Virus record (IMG/VR): IMGVR_UViG_3300017971_000588
Coordinates: 1-33,199 of that record
Reading direction: 5' to 3' (one strand)
DNA length: 33,199 nt
Source of the DNA: a virus
The position numbers and the translations under genes were made by a program. Shown here one piece after another: positions 17,178-31,989 of the stretch; within the stretch, counting starts at the first letter, position 1; every line of letters begins with the position of its first letter. Below the pieces are notes generated by a model. It had not been told where the DNA came from. It did no database searches and worked only from the letters and a program-made list of their open reading frames with translations.

Positions 17178-19517
17178 TTAGCTGATTCCAGCTACGAGTC
17201 CACCATAAAGGCCACGATAATCAGATACACAACCGCCATACTCATGACGTATTTTATATCTGATTCGATCATTTGTGAATACCTGACCTACGGTAGGAGC
17301 ATCCTGTAAGAATAATTCAGGATTTTCTTTTCCATCAACAAAACCGATAACGATAGATTCGATGTCTGCTTTGTCTGCTGTCACGTACCAGTTATTCTGA
17401 TCACTTCTCAAATAGAACGCAGGAACAATAAGAGGTTCAAGAGCCTGATAGTTCGGGTTAGCACTTCTATTGTTTCCATTATTTCCAGAGGTAAGAACCT
17501 GTGGAATTGATTCTGATTCAAGTAAGATTTTAGCAGTAGAACGAAGTTCATAAGGAACGACTAAATATTTAGCCCTTAAACCTAATGTTTCGTTACTGTC
17601 TGCCTGTGCCTGATTTGCTATTGCTGTGATAGCCGCATCAAGAGTAGTATAGTCCAGATTTCCAGTAGTTGTATTTGCGTGACCGCTTGAATATACAACT
17701 GTAGAATCAGGCTGATATGTTCCACCATTAATAGCACCACTACCATAATTGAGCAGTAAATCATAAGCAAAAATAGAAAGCGTTCTATTAGCCGCAAACG
17801 CCATCTCTTTCGGGAATTTTTTGATTGCTCTTAAATCATCACCTTTGATCATTTCGCGTGTTACTGCAAACAATTTACCACGTTTTGAGGCGCTGTAATT
17901 TGCCGTAACTTCGTTCGGTGAACTATATGATGTATAAGCCGCATCTTCATTTACAACTGGTAAATTTCCGAAACCACCGATTCTTATAATATCATTTTGT
18001 TTGAAGTTTTTGACATTTTCTGTATGAATGATTTTCTTCCATGATTCTTTTACTGTAAGACGGTTATATTCCTGTGACATTCTACGATGCATTGATGTTC
18101 CAAAAGTTTCAGGAAAATCAGAAGTAACTGCTTCCTGTAAACGTCCTGTAACTTCACCATCGCCGTTCATTTGAACATATGCCTCACGAATACCGGCAAA
18201 AGGTTTAACACCGTCATATTTAGATTTTTCATCGTCTGTCGGTTCGTAACCTAACATCAAATCCATTCTCAACTGATTAAATTCTGTAGCATCTCTGCCG
18301 ATTTCAACTGGTCCCATGCCCTTTACCTCACCTGATTCTGTTAATTTAGCAAGAACATCTTTTTCAATTTTGATTGATTCTTTAAGTTTGTCCATGTCTA
18401 CGATAGAATCAGAATACTGTTTTTCAATTTTTTCTTTCACGGCTTTTGGTAAAACTTTATCAGATTCAAGAACAGCCTTCATTTCAATCTGTGATTCCCG
18501 AATTTTAACCTTGTTGATTGCCTCATCAAGTTCAGAAACTTTTTTTTCAACAGCATTAAATTTTTCAGATTCTTTTAATCTCTTAGATTCATCCATCTTA
18601 GCGATTAAAGATTTTACGGAATCATTGATTTTGTCAGTGTCTTTAATCTGAATACTTTCAATTAATTTTTTGACATCAGATTCTTTCAGTTCTTCTTTTT
18701 CATCTTCTTCTTTAGTTTCTTCTTTAGTTTCTTCTTTTTCTTCTTCTGTTTCGTCTTCTGTTTCTTCTTCGTCAGATTCTTTCAATCCTGACATTGCCAT
18801 TTTTACAAGCTCATCATCTTTAAGATCCTCAATTTTAACCCCCTCTTTGAGAGTTAATTTGTCTGCGTTTTCCCTTAGGAAACCAGCAAGAATTTTCATT
18901 AAATCCATTTTGTTTTTTCCTCGACTGTCACTTGCAGTCATTCGTAAAATTTTCCCACCTGCTGACGGGAATGTCACTATGTCAACGGAGTTTGCCGATG
19001 CAATCATTTTTACCTGAAAACATTTTCTACCTTCACATACTGCAGGCATGACCTCACCATCCGCATCAATTGAAAATCCTAATAAATCAGGATTTCCGCC
19101 TTCTACGGCGTTTTTGAAAGTCTGCTGAAAAAAAGGATCGGTCACATTAAATGTTCCTGTTAAACCCTCTTTAACACCGACTTTTTCATATTTGACGTCA
19201 TCTATCCACCCGGCTATATTTTTAGAAAATCCTTCCGGGATCTGTGCAGTATCGGGTAAATGATTTAAAATTTGATTGTCGAATTGGTAAGCAAAAACGT
19301 TAGCACCCTCAAAAACGTTGACAGCCTCTTTTAATACATCTGCAGGGTAATAAAAACCATTTTTAGATAATCCAGTTTCAATTATCATGATTTTGAATTT
19401 CTTGCCGTCTTTACTACCCTCTTGCAAAAAAATCTTATCATTGAGAATCACGTTATCAGGTATTTTATTATCTGAAATATTAAAAGATTCTTTAAATTTG
19501 TGGATTTTAAAAGCCAA
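17178..19517 (-). CDS. Prohead protease-scaffold-major capsid protein fusion
   Basis: One gene of about 780 residues (numbered from a GTG at 19526). Residues 30-200 resemble phage prohead serine proteases: SKNGFYYPADVL, H89 in QILNHLPD, and S152 in LLGFSIDADGE. Residues 205-410 are a scaffold-like acidic and coiled-coil region, with a Glu/Thr-rich run at 251-282. Residues 440-782 look like an HK97-fold capsid subunit (Mu gpT-like): REMIKGDDLRAIKKFPKEMA, then VYSSGHANT, and ending GGLVAGIS. Usually these are two or three genes, so self-cleavage is implied. The GTG is 1 nt from AGGAG; TTG at 19517 is 10 nt from it and preferred. A hairpin follows the stop. Confidence 0.88.
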   Translation of the reverse strand: MAFKIHKFKESFNISDNKIPDNVILNDKIFLQEGSKDGKKFKIMIIETGLSKNGFYYPADVLKEAVNVFEGANVFAYQFDNQILNHLPDTAQIPEGFSKNIAGWIDDVKYEKVGVKEGLTGTFNVTDPFFQQTFKNAVEGGNPDLLGFSIDADGEVMPAVCEGRKCFQVKMIASANSVDIVTFPSAGGKILRMTASDSRGKNKMDLMKILAGFLRENADKLTLKEGVKIEDLKDDELVKMAMSGLKESDEEETEDETEEEKEETKEETKEEDEKEELKESDVKKLIESIQIKDTDKINDSVKSLIAKMDESKRLKESEKFNAVEKKVSELDEAINKVKIRESQIEMKAVLESDKVLPKAVKEKIEKQYSDSIVDMDKLKESIKIEKDVLAKLTESGEVKGMGPVEIGRDATEFNQLRMDLMLGYEPTDDEKSKYDGVKPFAGIREAYVQMNGDGEVTGRLQEAVTSDFPETFGTSMHRRMSQEYNRLTVKESWKKIIHTENVKNFKQNDIIRIGGFGNLPVVNEDAAYTSYSSPNEVTANYSASKRGKLFAVTREMIKGDDLRAIKKFPKEMAFAANRTLSIFAYDLLLNYGSGAINGGTYQPDSTVVYSSGHANTTTGNLDYTTLDAAITAIANQAQADSNETLGLRAKYLVVPYELRSTAKILLESESIPQVLTSGNNGNNRSANPNYQALEPLIVPAFYLRSDQNNWYVTADKADIESIVIGFVDGKENPELFLQDAPTVGQVFTNDRIRYKIRHEYGGCVSDYRGLYGGLVAGIS

Positions 19518-19608
19518 ATCGACCACACTCCTATATTGAGTTATAGGATACTACTCTGTAGTTCGCTGGCTAATTGGAATAATCCGTTGGCTGGCTTTTC
19601 CTTGATAT

Positions 19609-23272: not shown

Positions 23273-24133
23273 TTACCTCTCTTGTTTTAATGCCTTTGCC
23301 ATTTCAGGTGTTACCAATATACTCACGCAACCGCAATTAATTGTATTCTCGGCACTTCCAGCGGGGTCTCTCGGAAACTGTAAAGCCTCTTTTTTCCCGC
23401 CTGCTTTAGGTGAAACCATAAAAGGGTCTTCAAATGGAATTGGATTCTCTTTTGTTTCCTGTTCAATAGAACTATGCCCAGAACGTCCGTCTGGTTTATG
23501 TGACCACAACCATCTTTTCAACATGTCCGGATTTGATTCTACTATCTCACTATCACGTTGATACTTTGCGATTGATTGAGTACGCATCATTTCTGTTCTG
23601 ACTATCCGCTCGGTTTTCCAGTATTGTTGTTTGAATACTTTATTATTAATATTCTTGACAACTTCCGTCACACTGTCACCACGTGCCATGCCTAATGAAA
23701 TCTGATTACCGACTTCTTTTCTTAAATCCTGCGGTACTGTTCTTATTAATTCTCCTGTCAATGTTACATTCGCATTCAATAGCGTATCATCAACTCTAAA
23801 CGGTGTCATTGATACACCTTGAACGGAAACCAAATCATCCGCCTGATCCGTCGCAAATTCAAACATACCACTTTGACCGACTGCCAGACTATCCGCCATA
23901 TTAGCAGATAACTGATCAATCCTGAAATTGACTTGTCCTAATATTTCAGGTAACACCGATGCATCAAACGTACCAGTGCCAGCAGATAACAAGTCCTGTG
24001 AAATTTCATTCCTTGCTCTCTTTAATAGTCGTATTTGTTGTTTCATTTCAGCATTAGTAAGTTTATCCCCACCACGGATAAATTTATTAACCTTAGTTTG
24101 AAATGCTCTTTTCTCTTTTTGTGTTACTGCCAT
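23273..24133 (-). CDS. Head morphogenesis protein (SPP1 gp7 / Mu gpF-like)
   Basis: 286 residues. The C-terminal half matches the SPP1 gp7/Mu F minor head family: the conserved arginine-rich helix RIVRTEMMRTQSIAKYQ near residue 180, then KRWLWSHKPDGRSGHSSIEQE, then the end motif NTINCGCVSI. These proteins sit inside the head near the portal and assist DNA ejection or head assembly. The position right after the portal is the family's usual place. The start ATG follows the portal stop by a few bases with only a weak ribosome binding site, implying translational coupling. Confidence 0.85.
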   Translation of the reverse strand: MAVTQKEKRAFQTKVNKFIRGGDKLTNAEMKQQIRLLKRARNEISQDLLSAGTGTFDASVLPEILGQVNFRIDQLSANMADSLAVGQSGMFEFATDQADDLVSVQGVSMTPFRVDDTLLNANVTLTGELIRTVPQDLRKEVGNQISLGMARGDSVTEVVKNINNKVFKQQYWKTERIVRTEMMRTQSIAKYQRDSEIVESNPDMLKRWLWSHKPDGRSGHSSIEQETKENPIPFEDPFMVSPKAGGKKEALQFPRDPAGSAENTINCGCVSILVTPEMAKALKQER

Positions 24134-24136
24134 TAA

Positions 24137-25807
24137 TTATGATTCTTTACCATTTCCCTTGCGTCTTTTTCCATGGCATTTTGAACATTCCCAAACAACA
24201 TCAAAAGGTCTACTATAATCATTATGATGTGCTTGTGCGTTTTGGCTCCCGCAACTATGGCATTTACCTCTTTTTATCTTTCCGTCTCTTATAGCATTTG
24301 TTAATGCATTATGAGCCTTTCTTTTTTCAGGGTTGTTATCAGCCCACTTTTTTTTTTGCTTGTTATGCCTTTTTGTTTTATCTAAACTACATTTTATCTT
24401 TTTATATATATCCTGTAAGGCATTATAAGCATGCTTAGATTCTTTAATCGGTTGTTCATCGTCAATTTTTTTGTCTTCTTCTTCTGCATTAGTTTCAACA
24501 CCTAATTGATTAATCATCAATGCCATTACTCTCTGTGCTGTCTCATTGCTCAAGAATTCATCCATTACTGATTGAGATAGTGCCGGTGTTAATTTGCTTA
24601 TACTATCAGCAACAAGTTCAACGTCTTTTTTAGATGGATCCGCTAAAGTAATTTTGAATGGATAGTCTGCGACCTTCCCGGTTAACTGATCCGCGTTAAT
24701 AGCCTCTTGAATCTGATATTCAACCAGTAAAATAAACATATCACGTATAAATTTTTGACGTCGTTTAATCTGTCTTATTGTCGGTTCAGTGATCTCTTTA
24801 CTTGTTGCTCTGTTTATATCATCGCCAACTCCAAAAATCCAATGCGATGGAAAACCACTGCCACTCGTTAATTGAGTCCCGATCATTTTCATAAAATCAA
24901 CCAGATCATCGGCTGTCAATTTCGGATTCATCGCGTCCCATTTCTCTTTCTCATTATGAATGACAGATGAACCGGCTTTCGGTGGATTTATTAATAATTC
25001 CATTGCTCTGCCTGCTATATCCTGCTCGTTCGCTCCCTCAATCGTAATATCCCATAAAAAAGATAACAAAAATACAACACGTTCTGACATTGTGAATAAT
25101 GTTTTATCATATATATCCAGCCAATCCGCGATATTCAACAAATCGCTTTGACCACGTGTACCGAATGAACTTTTATTAATCTGAAACGTGAATATTTCAC
25201 CTGAAATTTTATCTTCTTTATAATTCCGTTTTATGATTTCATATTTTTTTGTATTAGGTCCATGTGATGTCTCCGATGATTTCGGATATAAATATTCCAG
25301 CTCTTCAGCATTTTCTTCATTTCGTGTAATTTTGTCAATCTGTTCAGGATCAAACGCCCCGAGTTTTACAATACCGTTAAATTCATTTACGAACGGTCTG
25401 AATATCAATTCTCCATATCTCGATAAATCTTCAAATCTCTGCCCACCGCGTTCTTCCCACTCATTAATCAGCATAAACTTGTCTATAATTTCCTGCGCCT
25501 TTTCATCTTTAAATTTAATTGAAATACCGTCCGCATAAGTGAAATCGGTCCATAATTTAATAATACGCCGAGCCTGTGGATTTCTCTCAACGAGCCAGTC
25601 CACGACCTTAATCATTTTGTCATGTTTTAATGGTGTTAAATCTCTTAATCGTGATGTCTCTGTTATACGTCGCCAGTTACTGTCCTCACGAACACGCAAA
25701 CTTGAAGCCTCTTTGAACGCTGTACTACGTTCAATATCAATAACACTTTTGAATAACTTCTTTCCTACAAAAGTTTTTAATCTACCGAAAGATTCTTTAA
25801 TCTTCAA
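24137..25807 (-). CDS. Portal protein with fused C-terminal HNH-type zinc domain
   Basis: The portal forms the dodecameric vertex through which DNA enters the head. The body (to about residue 460, numbering from 25849) looks like phage portals: WLVERNPQARRIIKLWTDF, GELIFRPFVNE, FPSHWIFGVGDD, and the TEPTIRQIKRRQKFIRDM helix. Residues about 480-568 carry an unrelated HNH-like module: NPEKRKAHNALTNAIRDGK, then C530-x2-C533, H541-H542, and C555-x2-C558-H559. This module normally occurs as a free small phage nuclease. The longest frame opens at GTG 25849, upstream of the promoter's expected transcription start. TTG at 25807, 10 nt after GGGAG, is therefore the likely start (556 residues). Confidence 0.85.
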   Translation of the reverse strand: MKIKESFGRLKTFVGKKLFKSVIDIERSTAFKEASSLRVREDSNWRRITETSRLRDLTPLKHDKMIKVVDWLVERNPQARRIIKLWTDFTYADGISIKFKDEKAQEIIDKFMLINEWEERGGQRFEDLSRYGELIFRPFVNEFNGIVKLGAFDPEQIDKITRNEENAEELEYLYPKSSETSHGPNTKKYEIIKRNYKEDKISGEIFTFQINKSSFGTRGQSDLLNIADWLDIYDKTLFTMSERVVFLLSFLWDITIEGANEQDIAGRAMELLINPPKAGSSVIHNEKEKWDAMNPKLTADDLVDFMKMIGTQLTSGSGFPSHWIFGVGDDINRATSKEITEPTIRQIKRRQKFIRDMFILLVEYQIQEAINADQLTGKVADYPFKITLADPSKKDVELVADSISKLTPALSQSVMDEFLSNETAQRVMALMINQLGVETNAEEEDKKIDDEQPIKESKHAYNALQDIYKKIKCSLDKTKRHNKQKKKWADNNPEKRKAHNALTNAIRDGKIKRGKCHSCGSQNAQAHHNDYSRPFDVVWECSKCHGKRRKGNGKES

Positions 25808-25839
25808 AATAAAGCCACTCCCAAAATTTATCTTGATAT

Positions 25840-25868
25840 ATAATAACACCTTATTATTTCGATGTCAA
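25840..25868 (-). promoter_or_regulatory. Late promoter A (portal unit)
   Basis: TTGACA (25863-25868), 17 nt spacer, TATTAT (25840-25845). With the downstream ATATATCAAG it matches the capsid promoter at 19609-19637 at 32 of 37 positions. It directly follows a terminator. Confidence 0.8.
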
Positions 25869-26815: not shown

Positions 26816-26843
26816 ATTATACAACTCTAAAATAAAAAGTCAA
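26816..26843 (-). promoter_or_regulatory. Strong sigma70-like promoter
   Basis: TTGACT (26838-26843), 16 nt spacer, perfect TATAAT (26816-26821), minus strand. It overlaps the end of the exonuclease gene and lies just upstream of the gene starting at 26798, whose AGAGGTG ribosome binding site follows within 20 nt of the expected transcription start. Confidence 0.75.
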
Positions 26844-27790
26844 GTTTTCATTTTTAGTCTCTCTAAATATGTCAACATGTGTAAATACGTTTTATTGCTG
26901 ATCCTGTATTGTTTTTTACAGTCGTTGCATTTCATATTCCGTCGTATAACACCCATCGGGGTCGTATATGTTTTGTACATTTCAACATTTTCTCCGGCAC
27001 ATTCGGGGCATTCCCATTTATGACCACCTTTTAAGACCGCAAAATTTGTGTTATGCCATATATACGGTGACATCGAAAAATAAACCGCCTCCAATAATAT
27101 AACGTCATTCTCACAATATTCAACCATTTTATTTAATTGTTTTTCATCTTTATTCTCAATCACGTCAATCCACATCTGCAAACCTGTATGATCCAATTTT
27201 CTGCCCACCTGCAAAAATTGTCCGATGAAATCCAATTTATTAGATGCAAATGAAAAATACTGCCGTGCTTTTTTCAACGTGTCCAATGTCCTATATGTAG
27301 GAAACATATATAATCCATGTTCTATACAACGTGTACGAAGTTCTTTAATGTCAAAACGATCGCCATTATGACCGACTATTTCGTCCGCTTGACCGAGTAT
27401 TTTAACAAATTTCTTTATCATAACTTTGTCATCCTGATTTTTATCCCACCTCAACGAATGAACCCGATCTTCATATTGCCATTTGTATGATATACATATA
27501 ATTTTTTTTGTTTCTTTTAACATTTCAGGTCTAACATATTGTTTACCGCATCGCCACGCCCTGACTATATGATAAGACGTTTCAACATCAAAAAATAATC
27601 TTTTTATCGGTTTTTGCTTTGCCTCGATTTTAAGCCGTTTTCTCAAATTACGAACAAAACATCTGACATTTTCAAGTTCTTTATCAAGATCAAAATGTTT
27701 AATTATATCTCTTGCTATGACGGTATTATTAGGCTGAGTTTCCAGTTTAACACGCGTGAATTCTTTGACTCTCTCTGAATATCCTCTCAT
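26840..27790 (-). CDS. DEDD (DnaQ-like) 3'-5' exonuclease with C-terminal zinc ribbon
   Basis: 316 residues. An N-terminal helix-turn-helix-like region (residues 1-58) is followed by an RNase H-fold exonuclease. Its metal ligands are visible as FFDVET (D68, E70), GHNGDRFD (D147) and YCENDV (D229). There is no polymerase domain. The C-terminal part carries a zinc ribbon, CPEC (261-264) paired with CNDC (288-291). The family (YprB/DUF-type RNase H-like exonucleases) trims 3' ends of DNA or RNA; the substrate is not shown here. Overlap with the KOW-like and RNA ligase genes suggests RNA end processing. The promoter for the next unit sits across its stop codon. Confidence 0.82.
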   Translation of the reverse strand: MRGYSERVKEFTRVKLETQPNNTVIARDIIKHFDLDKELENVRCFVRNLRKRLKIEAKQKPIKRLFFDVETSYHIVRAWRCGKQYVRPEMLKETKKIICISYKWQYEDRVHSLRWDKNQDDKVMIKKFVKILGQADEIVGHNGDRFDIKELRTRCIEHGLYMFPTYRTLDTLKKARQYFSFASNKLDFIGQFLQVGRKLDHTGLQMWIDVIENKDEKQLNKMVEYCENDVILLEAVYFSMSPYIWHNTNFAVLKGGHKWECPECAGENVEMYKTYTTPMGVIRRNMKCNDCKKQYRISNKTYLHMLTYLERLKMKT

Positions 27791-27957
27791 TTTCCCTCCA
27801 TTGATTTTGCCAAATTTTTGATTTTCACCGCTCCTCTATGACGATTGATAAATGCAATATCATCTCCGGTCGTTTTATGGATCACACTTATAATATGACC
27901 CTTTGAAATTGATTTCCCATTATTATAATCAACTTTATCACCTGTTTTTAATTTCAT
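27787..27957 (-). CDS. Small SH3/KOW-like protein between RNA ligase and exonuclease
   Basis: 56 residues, MKLKTGDKVDYNNGKSISKG and onward, with a short-strand pattern: KTGDKVDY, then GHIISVIHKTTGDDIAFINRH, then GAVKIKNLAKS. The opening LKTGDKVDY and glycine-bounded strands resemble KOW/SH3-type barrels that bind RNA or the ribosome, but this is inference from a short sequence. Its ATG overlaps the RNA ligase stop (TAATG) and its TGA overlaps the exonuclease ATG (ATGA). The three genes are therefore almost certainly cotranslated. Confidence 0.65.
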   Translation of the reverse strand: MKLKTGDKVDYNNGKSISKGHIISVIHKTTGDDIAFINRHRGAVKIKNLAKSMEGK

Positions 27958-28856
27958 TATTTACCTTCCTTTTCAAATTGTTTTTCAACCAGTTTGTCTT
28001 TGTACCAATCAGGAAGTCCACGTACAACTGACCTCTCTATGTTTTTCCAAAAATGATCAAACAGTTTATCTTTTATCATGTCGGAACATTCGATCTTAAC
28101 ATCTTTTTGAACTTCTTTTATCAGCGATCCAATATCTTTGACCGACTCTGTTAACTCTCCATTATCTCTTAAATGTTGAACGGCTTTTTCAAAACGTGCA
28201 TCACTTCGTAACATTTCACATATTCCAGTTACAAGATCTGCTTTTGATGGGTTCATCAGCTTCCAATTTTTGTTATGTGTTTCCTTGAATTTTTCACTTA
28301 CATATTTTCCCATTAATGCGTGACCGTCCGCACCGAATCTACTATAATTTTTTATAACCATACCCTCAATCTTTTGACCGCCGAGAACACTATCTTTTTC
28401 AAGCAGTTCTTTAAAATCATCAATATTATCAATCGGTTTTCTGCTGATTATCGGCACTGTCTCAAATCCTAATCGTAAAGCCTCGGCCGCCTTACTCTGA
28501 TATGTTAAATAATCTTCTTGCCCTGTATCAATGTCAAATATCATTATAAAGTTTTTCGGAACTCTGTCATATGCAAGTGTATTATGTTTCGGTCTTCCCA
28601 AAAATTCACCACGGTATGTCCAGTTATTATGTAAGTGTTCTTTGATTCTCAATACAGTTTCAACCGCTGGAATAAACATTTTAACAGGATTTGTCAAATC
28701 AAGTATTTTATTTTTACTTTTACAAATCAATTCACCGTCATAAATACCGAAACTAAATTGTGAACCGTCAACCTTTTCTTCAATTAGCACATCGCCTTTT
28801 AACAAATCAGCAATCGCTTTATGTCCAAAATTATAAATTTTACCGTAACTTCTCAT
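27957..28856 (-). CDS. RNA ligase (nucleotidyltransferase superfamily)
   Basis: It would join RNA 5'-phosphate and 3'-OH ends via a lysine-AMP intermediate. In the frame opening at a GTG at 28868, motif I is EEKVDGSQ (adenylated Lys 32), motif III is YRGEFLG (85-91), motif IIIa is MIFDID (109-114), motif IV is IEGMVIKN (167-174) and motif V is MGKYV (186-190). RGEF and EGMVIK match the RNA_ligase (Rnl2-like) family better than DNA ligases. A helical C-terminal domain of about 100 residues follows. The ATG at 28856 has a GAGGTG motif 6 nt upstream and is preferred (299 residues). Phage RNA ligases often repair tRNAs cut by host defence nucleases. The stop overlaps the next small gene as TAATG. 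Confidence 0.88.
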   Translation of the reverse strand: MRSYGKIYNFGHKAIADLLKGDVLIEEKVDGSQFSFGIYDGELICKSKNKILDLTNPVKMFIPAVETVLRIKEHLHNNWTYRGEFLGRPKHNTLAYDRVPKNFIMIFDIDTGQEDYLTYQSKAAEALRLGFETVPIISRKPIDNIDDFKELLEKDSVLGGQKIEGMVIKNYSRFGADGHALMGKYVSEKFKETHNKNWKLMNPSKADLVTGICEMLRSDARFEKAVQHLRDNGELTESVKDIGSLIKEVQKDVKIECSDMIKDKLFDHFWKNIERSVVRGLPDWYKDKLVEKQFEKEGK

Positions 28857-28871
28857 TTTGCACCTCACATA

Positions 28872-28910: not shown

Positions 28911-30437
28911 TTATATAACACTATTCCTTTTTTCAGTGTACATCGATTTCATATTATTGCTAAATGTCTTTGTCACAATTGCCGTGTCCTGTTTCAACAT
29001 TGTATATCCGTTACTGATAACATCGACTATATCGTCATGCGAACCAGACGGAAATTCCGAACATTCCCTTATCAAATCCCTATTCCACTCTGCACGTTTT
29101 AAATAGATATTACCAGCCTGAAATATCGGCTCTAATGGTTCGGCTCTTGTTATCTTGTCTTTGGCTGGTGATATTTGCTCAACCGTTCGTAACCCTCTTA
29201 ATATCGACGCTAGATTCTCATAGGTGTCTTTATACCCAGCGATTGCCTCAATACCCACTTTGACAGTATCGCCGTCAACCTGTGCCGTCTGTAATATTAT
29301 CGGGTCCCTCTTAGGTGCTGACCATTGCCCCCGAACTAAATCTCTAATATATATCGCTGGAACTTTTACACCTTCATCATTTTCAATTTCACCTACTGCC
29401 AACAATCCGCCGACCGTATAATCAGGGTCTTGTTTTAATTGCTGTTTGCTTGTCGATGCTAAATCCCATATTCTAGCCCATCTTAAACCATCAGGAAAAC
29501 TATCTACTATTTTGATTCTGCTACAATCCAAACGTCCACCCTCTTTGATAACTGGATTACATTGTAACAATCCAGCCGATGCATATTTTCCCAAAGATGC
29601 GAATTGCTGTTTATACCACTGCTCTGGAAATCTCTCAGGAAATAAATATTTATTTTCATATTTATCACTCACGGCTGGAAATGATATAACCTCAAATACT
29701 GGAAAGTCTGGTTCGTAGTCTTCACTATCAGGATCATTCTTTTTCTTTATACGTCCGATAATGTCGTCAATATGCCACGGTGTCGCTAATATTATTGTAA
29801 CACTTACAGGGGCACGTCGAGTAAAAAACGCTTGTGTAAACCAGTCCCATTGTCTATCCCTTGTCTTTGCTGATTCCGCATCGTCCCTGTTTTTCAAATA
29901 ATCATCTATAATACCAAAATGATAGCCCTTACCAGTAATAGCACCACCGACACCAGCCCACCGAGTTTTTCCGTTCACCTTGTCTTTTCTATTTACAGGT
30001 TCAACATCCCATTTCTCAACTGAATGTGTTTTACTTGATAACTTGATATCTGGAAACACCTCTCGGAATGTCTCGGTATCTACAATAGCCCTAGAATCTC
30101 TTGACAGGTCGTGTGAGAGGTCTGCACCGTATGTACCGACTAAAACCTCTATATTCTTGAAAAGTCCTAATATACGTGGTGGTAAGTAACGAGAAACAAT
30201 CTGCGACTTACCATGTCGAAACGGGATAGTCAAAATCAAGAACACCGATCGACCTTTTCTATAACTGGCAATTGCATTGTCTATTTTATCGCATATAACT
30301 TTTGTATGTCGACCGACAATAAACGGGTCTTTCTTTTTATCGAACGTCCAACAATACCGCATAAACTCCACATGTTCACGTTTTGCAAGTTCACGGTCTA
30401 TGTCATCAACATTTATAAAAGATTTTTCTATTTCCAC
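28911..30437 (-). CDS. terL: Terminase large subunit (DNA packaging ATPase/nuclease)
   Basis: It drives ATP-dependent packaging of phage DNA into proheads through the portal and cuts the concatemer. Numbering from an in-frame ATG at 30485, the Walker A-like loop is IPFRHGKS (87-94), Walker B is FGIIDD (190-195), and the coupling motif is ATPWH (234-238). The nuclease half begins near RIWDLAS and has late acidic residues (SHDDIVD). I prefer the GTG at 30437 as start: GGAG lies 4 nt before it, while the ATG at 30485 has no ribosome binding site and its extra 16 residues are Cys-rich and unlike terminases. Length from the GTG is 508 residues, normal for the family. The gene ends just upstream of the RNA ligase promoter. 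Confidence 0.93.
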   Translation of the reverse strand: MEIEKSFINVDDIDRELAKREHVEFMRYCWTFDKKKDPFIVGRHTKVICDKIDNAIASYRKGRSVFLILTIPFRHGKSQIVSRYLPPRILGLFKNIEVLVGTYGADLSHDLSRDSRAIVDTETFREVFPDIKLSSKTHSVEKWDVEPVNRKDKVNGKTRWAGVGGAITGKGYHFGIIDDYLKNRDDAESAKTRDRQWDWFTQAFFTRRAPVSVTIILATPWHIDDIIGRIKKKNDPDSEDYEPDFPVFEVISFPAVSDKYENKYLFPERFPEQWYKQQFASLGKYASAGLLQCNPVIKEGGRLDCSRIKIVDSFPDGLRWARIWDLASTSKQQLKQDPDYTVGGLLAVGEIENDEGVKVPAIYIRDLVRGQWSAPKRDPIILQTAQVDGDTVKVGIEAIAGYKDTYENLASILRGLRTVEQISPAKDKITRAEPLEPIFQAGNIYLKRAEWNRDLIRECSEFPSGSHDDIVDVISNGYTMLKQDTAIVTKTFSNNMKSMYTEKRNSVI

Positions 30438-30511
30438 GTCGCTCCAACAAGATATAGAAAGCATACAAAAATTACAATACCGCATATACCATTTAAAAAT
30501 TGATTTGTCAT
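30428..30511 (-). CDS. Tiny membrane ORF overlapping the terminase start
   Basis: 27 codons, MTNQFLNGICGIVIFVC followed by ten more residues. It forms a single hydrophobic segment at about residues 9-24 with a short polar end. The support is contextual: AAGGAG lies 6 nt before the ATG, the best ribosome binding site in the neighbourhood, and the ATG directly follows the previous stop. Its last codons overlap the probable GTG start of the terminase, so it may work as a coupling leader peptide, or be a real small membrane protein. It is below usual gene-calling length. Confidence 0.5.
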   Translation of the reverse strand: MTNQFLNGICGIVIFVCFLYLVGATWK

Positions 30512-31111: not shown

Positions 31112-31387
31112 TTATTTCTCCTCAATCTGTTCTGTTAGGTATTTTATTATTTCTTCTGTGTTCATTCTTAAAGCACCATTTAATATATGGTTTCTTTCAA
31201 ACGCATCTAATCCAAACACCTCAAACACTTTATATTTCGGGTTAAACAGCCACTCGTAAAAGCCGATTTTATATATTTGATAATTCCCTGTCTTTGGGTT
31301 ATGGTTAAACGTAACATTTTTGTTGTCTATATTTATAACCTTGATTTCACTCTGATTATCATTATAGTATTTTATTAGTTTTTTCAT
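31112..31387 (-). CDS. Hypothetical protein following the pentapeptide gene
   Basis: 91 residues, not recognised. The N-terminal part is beta-rich and basic (EIKVINIDNKNVTFNHNPKTGNYQIYKIG). The C-terminal part is helical with MNTEEIIKYLTEQIEEK. It starts with [10 protein letters not shown] behind a GGGGGAG motif, and its ATG overlaps the stop of the pentapeptide gene by one base, so coupled translation is likely. No cysteine cluster or membrane segment is seen. Confidence 0.6.
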   Translation of the reverse strand: MKKLIKYYNDNQSEIKVINIDNKNVTFNHNPKTGNYQIYKIGFYEWLFNPKYKVFEVFGLDAFERNHILNGALRMNTEEIIKYLTEQIEEK

Positions 31388-31989
31388 TAAATCTCCCCCT
31401 TAAATCTTTTTAAATATTCATCATAACCCAAATCAGCAATTTTTTTTAATATCTTTTGTGCAGACGGTATTTTTCTTATCTTATCCCAACACCAATAACT
31501 CATATAGACTTGAGATATTTTACCGAGTTCTTTAACTGTGAATTTTTCGTTGTTTCTTTTTACTACATCAAATAAAAACTCATGGTTATCATAATAGTTT
31601 TTGGCTCCACGAAGGTCGGCTCCACGAAGGTCGGCTCCGATAAGGTTGGCTCCACGAAGGTCGGCTCCACGAAGGTCGGCTCCACGAAGGTTGGCTCCGT
31701 AAAGGTTGGCTCCGTAAAGGCTGGCTCCACGAAGGTCAGCTCTGTCAAGGCTGGCTCCGATAAGGTCTGCTCTGCGAAGGTCTGCTCCACGAAGGTCGGC
31801 TCTGCGAAGGTCTGCTCCACGAAGGTTGGCTCTGTCAAGGCTGGCTCCGCTAAGGTCTTCTCCGTAAAGATCTGCTCCGCTAAGGTCTGCTCCGTTTTTC
31901 TCTACACAATCTTTAACGCTTTCATATTTACCGCATACTAATACATTTTTACTATCGAATCTTGATACTATTTTAATTTGTTTTTTCAT
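31387..31989 (-). CDS. Pentapeptide-repeat protein (full-length paralogue)
   Basis: 200 residues in three parts. Residues 1-33 are a conserved N-terminal module ([11 protein letters not shown], then [18 protein letters not shown]). Residues 34-128 hold about 19 pentapeptides of the A(D/N)LxG type, which should fold as a right-handed quadrilateral beta-helix. The rest is a C-terminal domain containing [22 protein letters not shown]. The same N and C modules recur in the two genes at 1-584. In DNA the repeat is a 15-bp unit spanning about 31601-31895. Some pentapeptide proteins mimic DNA and protect gyrase (Qnr/MfpA), but nothing here proves that role. A GGAG motif precedes the start. Confidence 0.9.
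31601..31895. repeat. 15-bp tandem repeats in the pentapeptide gene
   Basis: About 19-20 degenerate 15-bp units (consensus near ggctccacgaaggtc). Less uniform than the array at 1-150. Confidence 0.9.

Follow-up and report, generated by a model that had tools for sequence, protein, structure and literature searches.

The portal gene of an uncultivated phage lineage, known from a 33,199-base virus record (the window, meaning the whole stretch of DNA analysed; genome 34% GC), is a genuine lineage-specific gene fusion in which the reading frame passes from a portal protein directly into an HNH-type module that phages normally encode as a free protein. Arguing by analogy with solved portals and known nucleases, we lean toward reading the module as a captured nuclease gene, now tolerated as a DNA-contacting extension of the portal crown that is perhaps useful and has weak or no nuclease activity. 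Three observations bear directly on capture, which the first-pass annotation had already proposed: the fused frame, the absence of the module from related portals, and the lack in the fused copy of both the N-terminal zinc finger and a start codon. Coordinates of the gene, its parts and its neighbours are collected in Table 1.

Table 1 Features of the portal-HNH fusion gene and its neighbours in the window.
Feature	Position	Strand	Basis or remark
Portal-HNH fusion gene	24137..25849	(-)	570 codons counted from GTG
Portal core, residues 63-484 (clip, stem, wing, crown)	24398..25663	(-)	phrog_10963, structures, relatives
Junction zone, residues 485-500	24350..24397	(-)	Alignment with unfused portals L226, L227, L228
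HNH-fold module, putatively captured (residues 488-570; predicted to have a basic helix and a second helix ahead of a zinc-stabilised beta-beta-alpha core)	24140..24388	(-)	phrog_2340, AlphaFold2
Predicted zinc/active-site core: C530, C533, H541, H542, D544, Y545, P548, W553, C555, C558, H559; R563	24161..24262	(-)	63 free homologues
A10 run in module linker	24348..24357	(-)	A AAA AAG slip site
MuF-like minor head protein	23273..24133	(-)	phrog_2468, E 2e-23; starts 3 bases after fusion stop
Large terminase	28911..30485	(-)	phrog_38, E 3e-72; upstream of portal, same strand

Authenticity of the fusion and its absence from related portals

The fusion frame runs uninterrupted for 570 residues with no internal stop, and a genome search likewise returned an open frame of 575 with no stop. 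Translation probably begins downstream of the listed GTG; a TTG at 25807 (residue 15) is preferred because a GGGAG ribosome-binding site lies ten bases upstream of it (window 25805-25849) and because it better fits the portals of relatives. The same in-frame fusion is present in a second assembly, viral contig L001 (IMGVR 3300017963_001193), which aligns colinearly with the window along 10,309 bases with a single mismatch, located outside the fusion gene; zero sequence variation was seen in this gene within the lineage (two assemblies). No ATG, GTG or TTG occurs in frame beyond residue 445; we therefore rejected a separate internal start, and by ordinary initiation the module would be made only as part of the fusion. 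We likewise rejected an RNA element, such as a group I intron, at the fusion site, as Rfam gave no match in the window, and since the portals of relatives end at the junction, no downstream exon is missing there.

The linker of the module contains a run of ten A residues at which a -1 shift would meet a stop after about 2 residues, leaving a portal without the module. This is the longest such run in the window, where 1.7 runs are expected by chance. Given that number, the several other slip-like sites and the AAA-rich lysine codons (84% AAA in the genes counted), we make no claim of programmed slippage, possible as it is.

The portal identity of the larger part is supported by both profile and structure. 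A profile search assigns residues 54-477 to the portal family phrog_10963 (E 4.2e-28), and the solved portal of phiCD508 (9gb3) is recovered at E 1.6e-7 with a profile built from 47 relatives; the whole fusion protein had no match in the PDB by Phmmer. An AlphaFold2 model of the fusion protein (mean pLDDT 79, lower in the tail) shares its core fold with the lambda portal (Z 23.2 over 364 residues) and also matches the SPP1 gp6 and T4 gp20 portals. In most rows the structural match stops at residues 453-477, corresponding to SPP1 gp6 residue 470 and T4 gp20 residue 516, and thus the module follows the crown. The portal core extends to about residue 484, with the portal's own tail perhaps reaching 497. 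Directly downstream lies muF, as in SPP1-like phages.

Portal scans of viral contigs yielded 108 distinct frames that include the portal C-terminus. A CxxC motif in the portal tail was found in this lineage only, and the module was absent from the other 107 distinct frames as well as from further portals beside MuF relatives (MuF-based scan), which agrees with the initial view that such a fusion is unusual. Scanning viral contigs for portal, terminase, MuF and module, together with one genome scan, returned fused relatives from the same lineage only. Whereas the fused portal carries the module, the examined relatives have short tails (median about 31 residues) of variable length and sequence, with no zinc or HNH domain seen. 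The closest portals, L226 (40% identity, with a terminase 53% identical), L227 (45%) and L228 (45%), end at the junction with a stop that overlaps or abuts the muF start, and the insertion therefore sits at the portal-muF boundary. A stop separating portal from HNH domain in relatives, which had been named as a finding that would count against the fusion, was not seen; these three have no HNH module at all. A match in L228 that seemingly reached residue 524 was rejected, as its portal frame stops at the junction.

Several features of the surrounding genes and of other portals were recorded alongside. Between the large terminase and the portal, the window encodes an RNA ligase (PF09414) and a PolB-type exonuclease (26840-28868), unlike L227, where the portal directly follows the terminase. 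A 782-codon frame at 17178-19526 has apparent prohead-protease-like N-terminal and capsid-like C-terminal parts and is related to an 896-residue frame in an Omnitrophota MAG (L229). A pentapeptide-repeat protein (ADLRGA-type) is encoded at 31387-31989, and the other record end (1-151) has repeats of about 80-88% DNA identity. Elsewhere, a further C-terminal portal fusion was noted in a relative (L081 2936-5395, and L082), whose 263-residue extension resembles, by eye, a tail of ADP-ribosyltransferase type (YRGIRVPA motif). The portals of L193, L195, L215 and L217 have in common a C-terminal extension of 110-134 residues that terminates close to AADLLGFA/ADVLGFA and has no relation to the HNH module.

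The module and its free phrog_2340 relatives

Residues 463-568 match phrog_2340, a phage endonuclease family, over profile positions 54-165 of 171 (E 8.1e-18, whole protein). In a genome search the module matched the same family at E 4.2e-21 and none of 14 control genomes did, arguing against a chance match. The motifs NPEKRKAHNALTNAIRDGK, C530-x2-C533, H541H542 and C555-x2-C558-H559 lie where they had first been noticed. The annotated span, which began at 24420, was slightly too wide: the module proper begins near residues 488-500 (about 24388-24350) and has a length of ~83 residues. The HMM search against HNH families that had been suggested as a check was answered by phrog_2340; neither the module nor its free relatives matched a Pfam HNH model, and hence the HNH label rests on the PHROG and the predicted fold. 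Searches with a module profile otherwise gave zinc-ribbon-like chance matches only.

Members of phrog_2340 are mostly free proteins of 130-170 aa composed of an N-terminal CxxC..CxxC finger, a basic linker and a C-terminal domain. Sf6 gene 26 and the proteins of Vibrio phage D96a and kayvirus (I-KsaII) share the C-terminal domain with the module at about 38-59% identity, with the same invariant residues; they differ in having the zinc finger, usually an H-x3-H end, and no attachment to a structural protein. In the fused copy the finger is absent and the portal stands in its place. The module is a fragment of the family and not a full member.

Comparison with 63 free homologues showed that the fused copy keeps all ten invariant or near-invariant positions (C530, C533, H541, H542, Y545, P548, W553, C555 and H559, with D544 near-invariant). 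It departs at position 554, with Glu versus Leu in 96% of free homologues, and at position 563, with Arg versus His in 60 of 63 (95%), so that the H-x3-H end is lacking. Judging from colicin E9 and similar HNH enzymes, the histidine at 563 would be a metal ligand, and on that analogy its loss would probably weaken cleavage by the module. The copy may still cut, because the remaining 3 homologues carry Arg, Asp or Gly at this position and T4 endonuclease VII functions without an equivalent histidine. The module has a net charge of +14 versus a mean of +7.4 in free homologues, an excess that may merely mirror the lysine-rich coding of an AT-rich genome.

An AlphaFold2 model of the module in a 100-residue construct (pLDDT 92) shows helices at 2-35 and 37-51, strands at 69-72 and 81-84, and a helix at 86-98, a predicted topology that fits the beta-beta-alpha metal (HNH) fold. 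In a second-look structural alignment, 11 of 23 solved structures were HNH nucleases (among them I-E HNH Cascade, GVE2 HNH, P1 Ref, EcoKMcrA, Cap5 and T5 SciA), with every Z below 4, and Foldseek against the PDB gave a best E of 1.0. Among viral structure models, the best matches to the module were phage proteins whose annotation is uncharacterised, HNHc or endonuclease VII, with the top one from phage ACG-M12, whose free copy belongs to the module family. The absence of a family from the Foldseek and VIA lists was not counted as evidence against that family.

The genomic setting of the free copies bears on where the module came from. Genes of SSB type or Erf/RecT type were present in the fetched flanks at 37 of 68 free-copy loci, usually directly adjoining, a count that is a lower bound (eleven query proteins) and that includes many close relatives of Sf6, which are not independent events. 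One family member, I-KsaII, has its gene within an intron of kayvirus polA. The domain is thus carried by phages both in recombination clusters and as a mobile element. Partial support for the suggested homing-type nuclease comes from this one intron-encoded member and from the lineage-specific insertion at a gene boundary; no intron RNA was found in the window, and the SSB, Erf and RecT neighbours indicate recombination as much as homing. Nuclease genes are common near essential phage genes (PMC10448857), and in SPP1 the HNH protein gp36.1 is encoded after SSB (PMC6316719).

No fusion to a structural protein was found among the sampled free copies; a 320-residue frame in L141 was rejected as a fusion, being an upstream open-frame extension across an SSB gene. 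Erwinia phage Papaline (L087, OQ818704.1 52738-52986) has the module spread over two overlapping frames, part of it in sequence that carries no annotation, and its record contains four matches.

Location of the module and competing readings of its role

The likeliest course of events begins with a free phrog_2340-type nuclease gene entering the portal-muF boundary in an ancestor of the lineage. The captured gene would have lost its start codon and N-terminal zinc finger, and the portal stop would have been removed, in an order that we can only suppose. Each portal subunit would now end in ~83 residues made up of the linker helix and HNH-fold core. Portals have crown, wing and stem inside the capsid, with the crown touching packaged DNA (PMC9958956). 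GFP attached to the T4 portal C-terminus is located within the prohead, and procapsids containing four to six of these subunits have served in packaging assays (PMC10893049). As portal C-termini lie in the crown, the module is expected inside the capsid, away from the motor at the outer clip. By homology with solved portals, up to twelve copies would hang from the crown around the DNA channel exit, where a positively charged, zinc-stabilised module could contact incoming or packaged DNA with weak or no cleavage. It is this location that makes a DNA-contacting crown extension the best reading.

A less probable alternative, which nonetheless deserves weight, is that the module is a neutral passenger, the product of a recent accidental fusion tolerated at variable portal tails and without function. 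The variability of portal tails among relatives, the restriction of the module to one lineage and the changes at positions 563 and 554 are all consistent with it. A passenger would be less expected to have retained the ten invariant zinc and core residues, to have kept an 83-codon frame open in a genome of this GC content, or to give a well-ordered AlphaFold2 fold, although a recent origin would also account for the retention, the open frame and the order alike.

That the module is a working part of packaging, as the first-pass annotation had entertained, fared worse, and we regard it as improbable. Here the module would nick or trim branched or terminal DNA at the portal, in the manner of T4 endonuclease VII or HK97 gp74. 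T4 endonuclease VII associates with the portal, binding gp20, and releases stalled branched (Y-shaped) DNA (PMC9958956, PMC10893049). Like the module's predicted core, this protein (gp49) is a zinc-stabilised beta-beta-alpha nuclease with a similar CxxC..H..D..CxxC spacing and a link to the portal; it differs in being a separate protein that acts on DNA stalled at the prohead. Aligned with its core (CxxC..DHDH..CxxCN), the module profile gave 31% identity over 35 columns, a weak, motif-level relation (E 0.018, hhalign probability 2.6%) that is suggestive only. Endonuclease VII PHROGs also pick up some free members of the family, largely by way of the N-terminal finger, and the frequent SSB, Erf and RecT neighbours of free copies would also suit a nuclease of this kind.

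HK97 gp74, which assists terminase at cos (PMC9410871), is likewise an HNH-fold protein encoded in the packaging region, but it is a free protein near terminase and cos and not part of the portal. No similarity to the module was found (hhalign probability 0.3%, 12 columns; a different PHROG set), and T4 MobC gave no profile match to it. The idea of a packaging nuclease is further weakened by the expected position of the module inside the head rather than at the motor, and by the loss of the histidine at 563. A more specific form, which we hold to be slightly more doubtful still, is an active structure-selective nuclease in the portal ring, a covalent version of the T4 endonuclease VII-portal link that, as DNA is packaged, would clear branches or set DNA ends. 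Truncated subunits arising by A10 slippage could also yield mixed rings.

Very unlikely, in our estimate, is a head-loaded effector, in which the portal C-terminus would bring an enzyme into the capsid for use at infection. The portal is expected to remain in the virion, which counts against such delivery, no separate module product is evident, and a nuclease beside the packaged genome would be hazardous. There are precedents in its favour: Nudix, 2H and ADP-ribosyltransferase domains on portal or MuF proteins have been described and proposed as injected effectors (PMC9503650), and the L081 portal has its 263-residue extension. These fusions resemble the present one in placing an extra enzyme-like domain on a head protein, and differ in that they are presumed injected effectors, whereas here the fold is a DNA-binding or DNA-cutting one. 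Scarcely credible, finally, is an assembly or frame error, a worry raised at first pass: the A10 run in the linker does carry an indel risk, but the second assembly agrees, and with 9 or 11 A the module would be without any start codon.

Implications for portal evolution and packaging

Portal fusions with other enzyme domains have been described before (PMC9503650); an HNH-portal fusion was not found in the literature searched, although an earlier description may exist. Portals are strongly constrained, and a fusion giving each subunit an additional DNA-binding fold shows the tolerance of the crown end. It also shows how nuclease genes located at gene boundaries can be absorbed into parts of the virion. 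An active module would couple a recombination-type nuclease physically to the channel used for packaging, and would allow a direct test of the link proposed between portals and junction-resolving nucleases.
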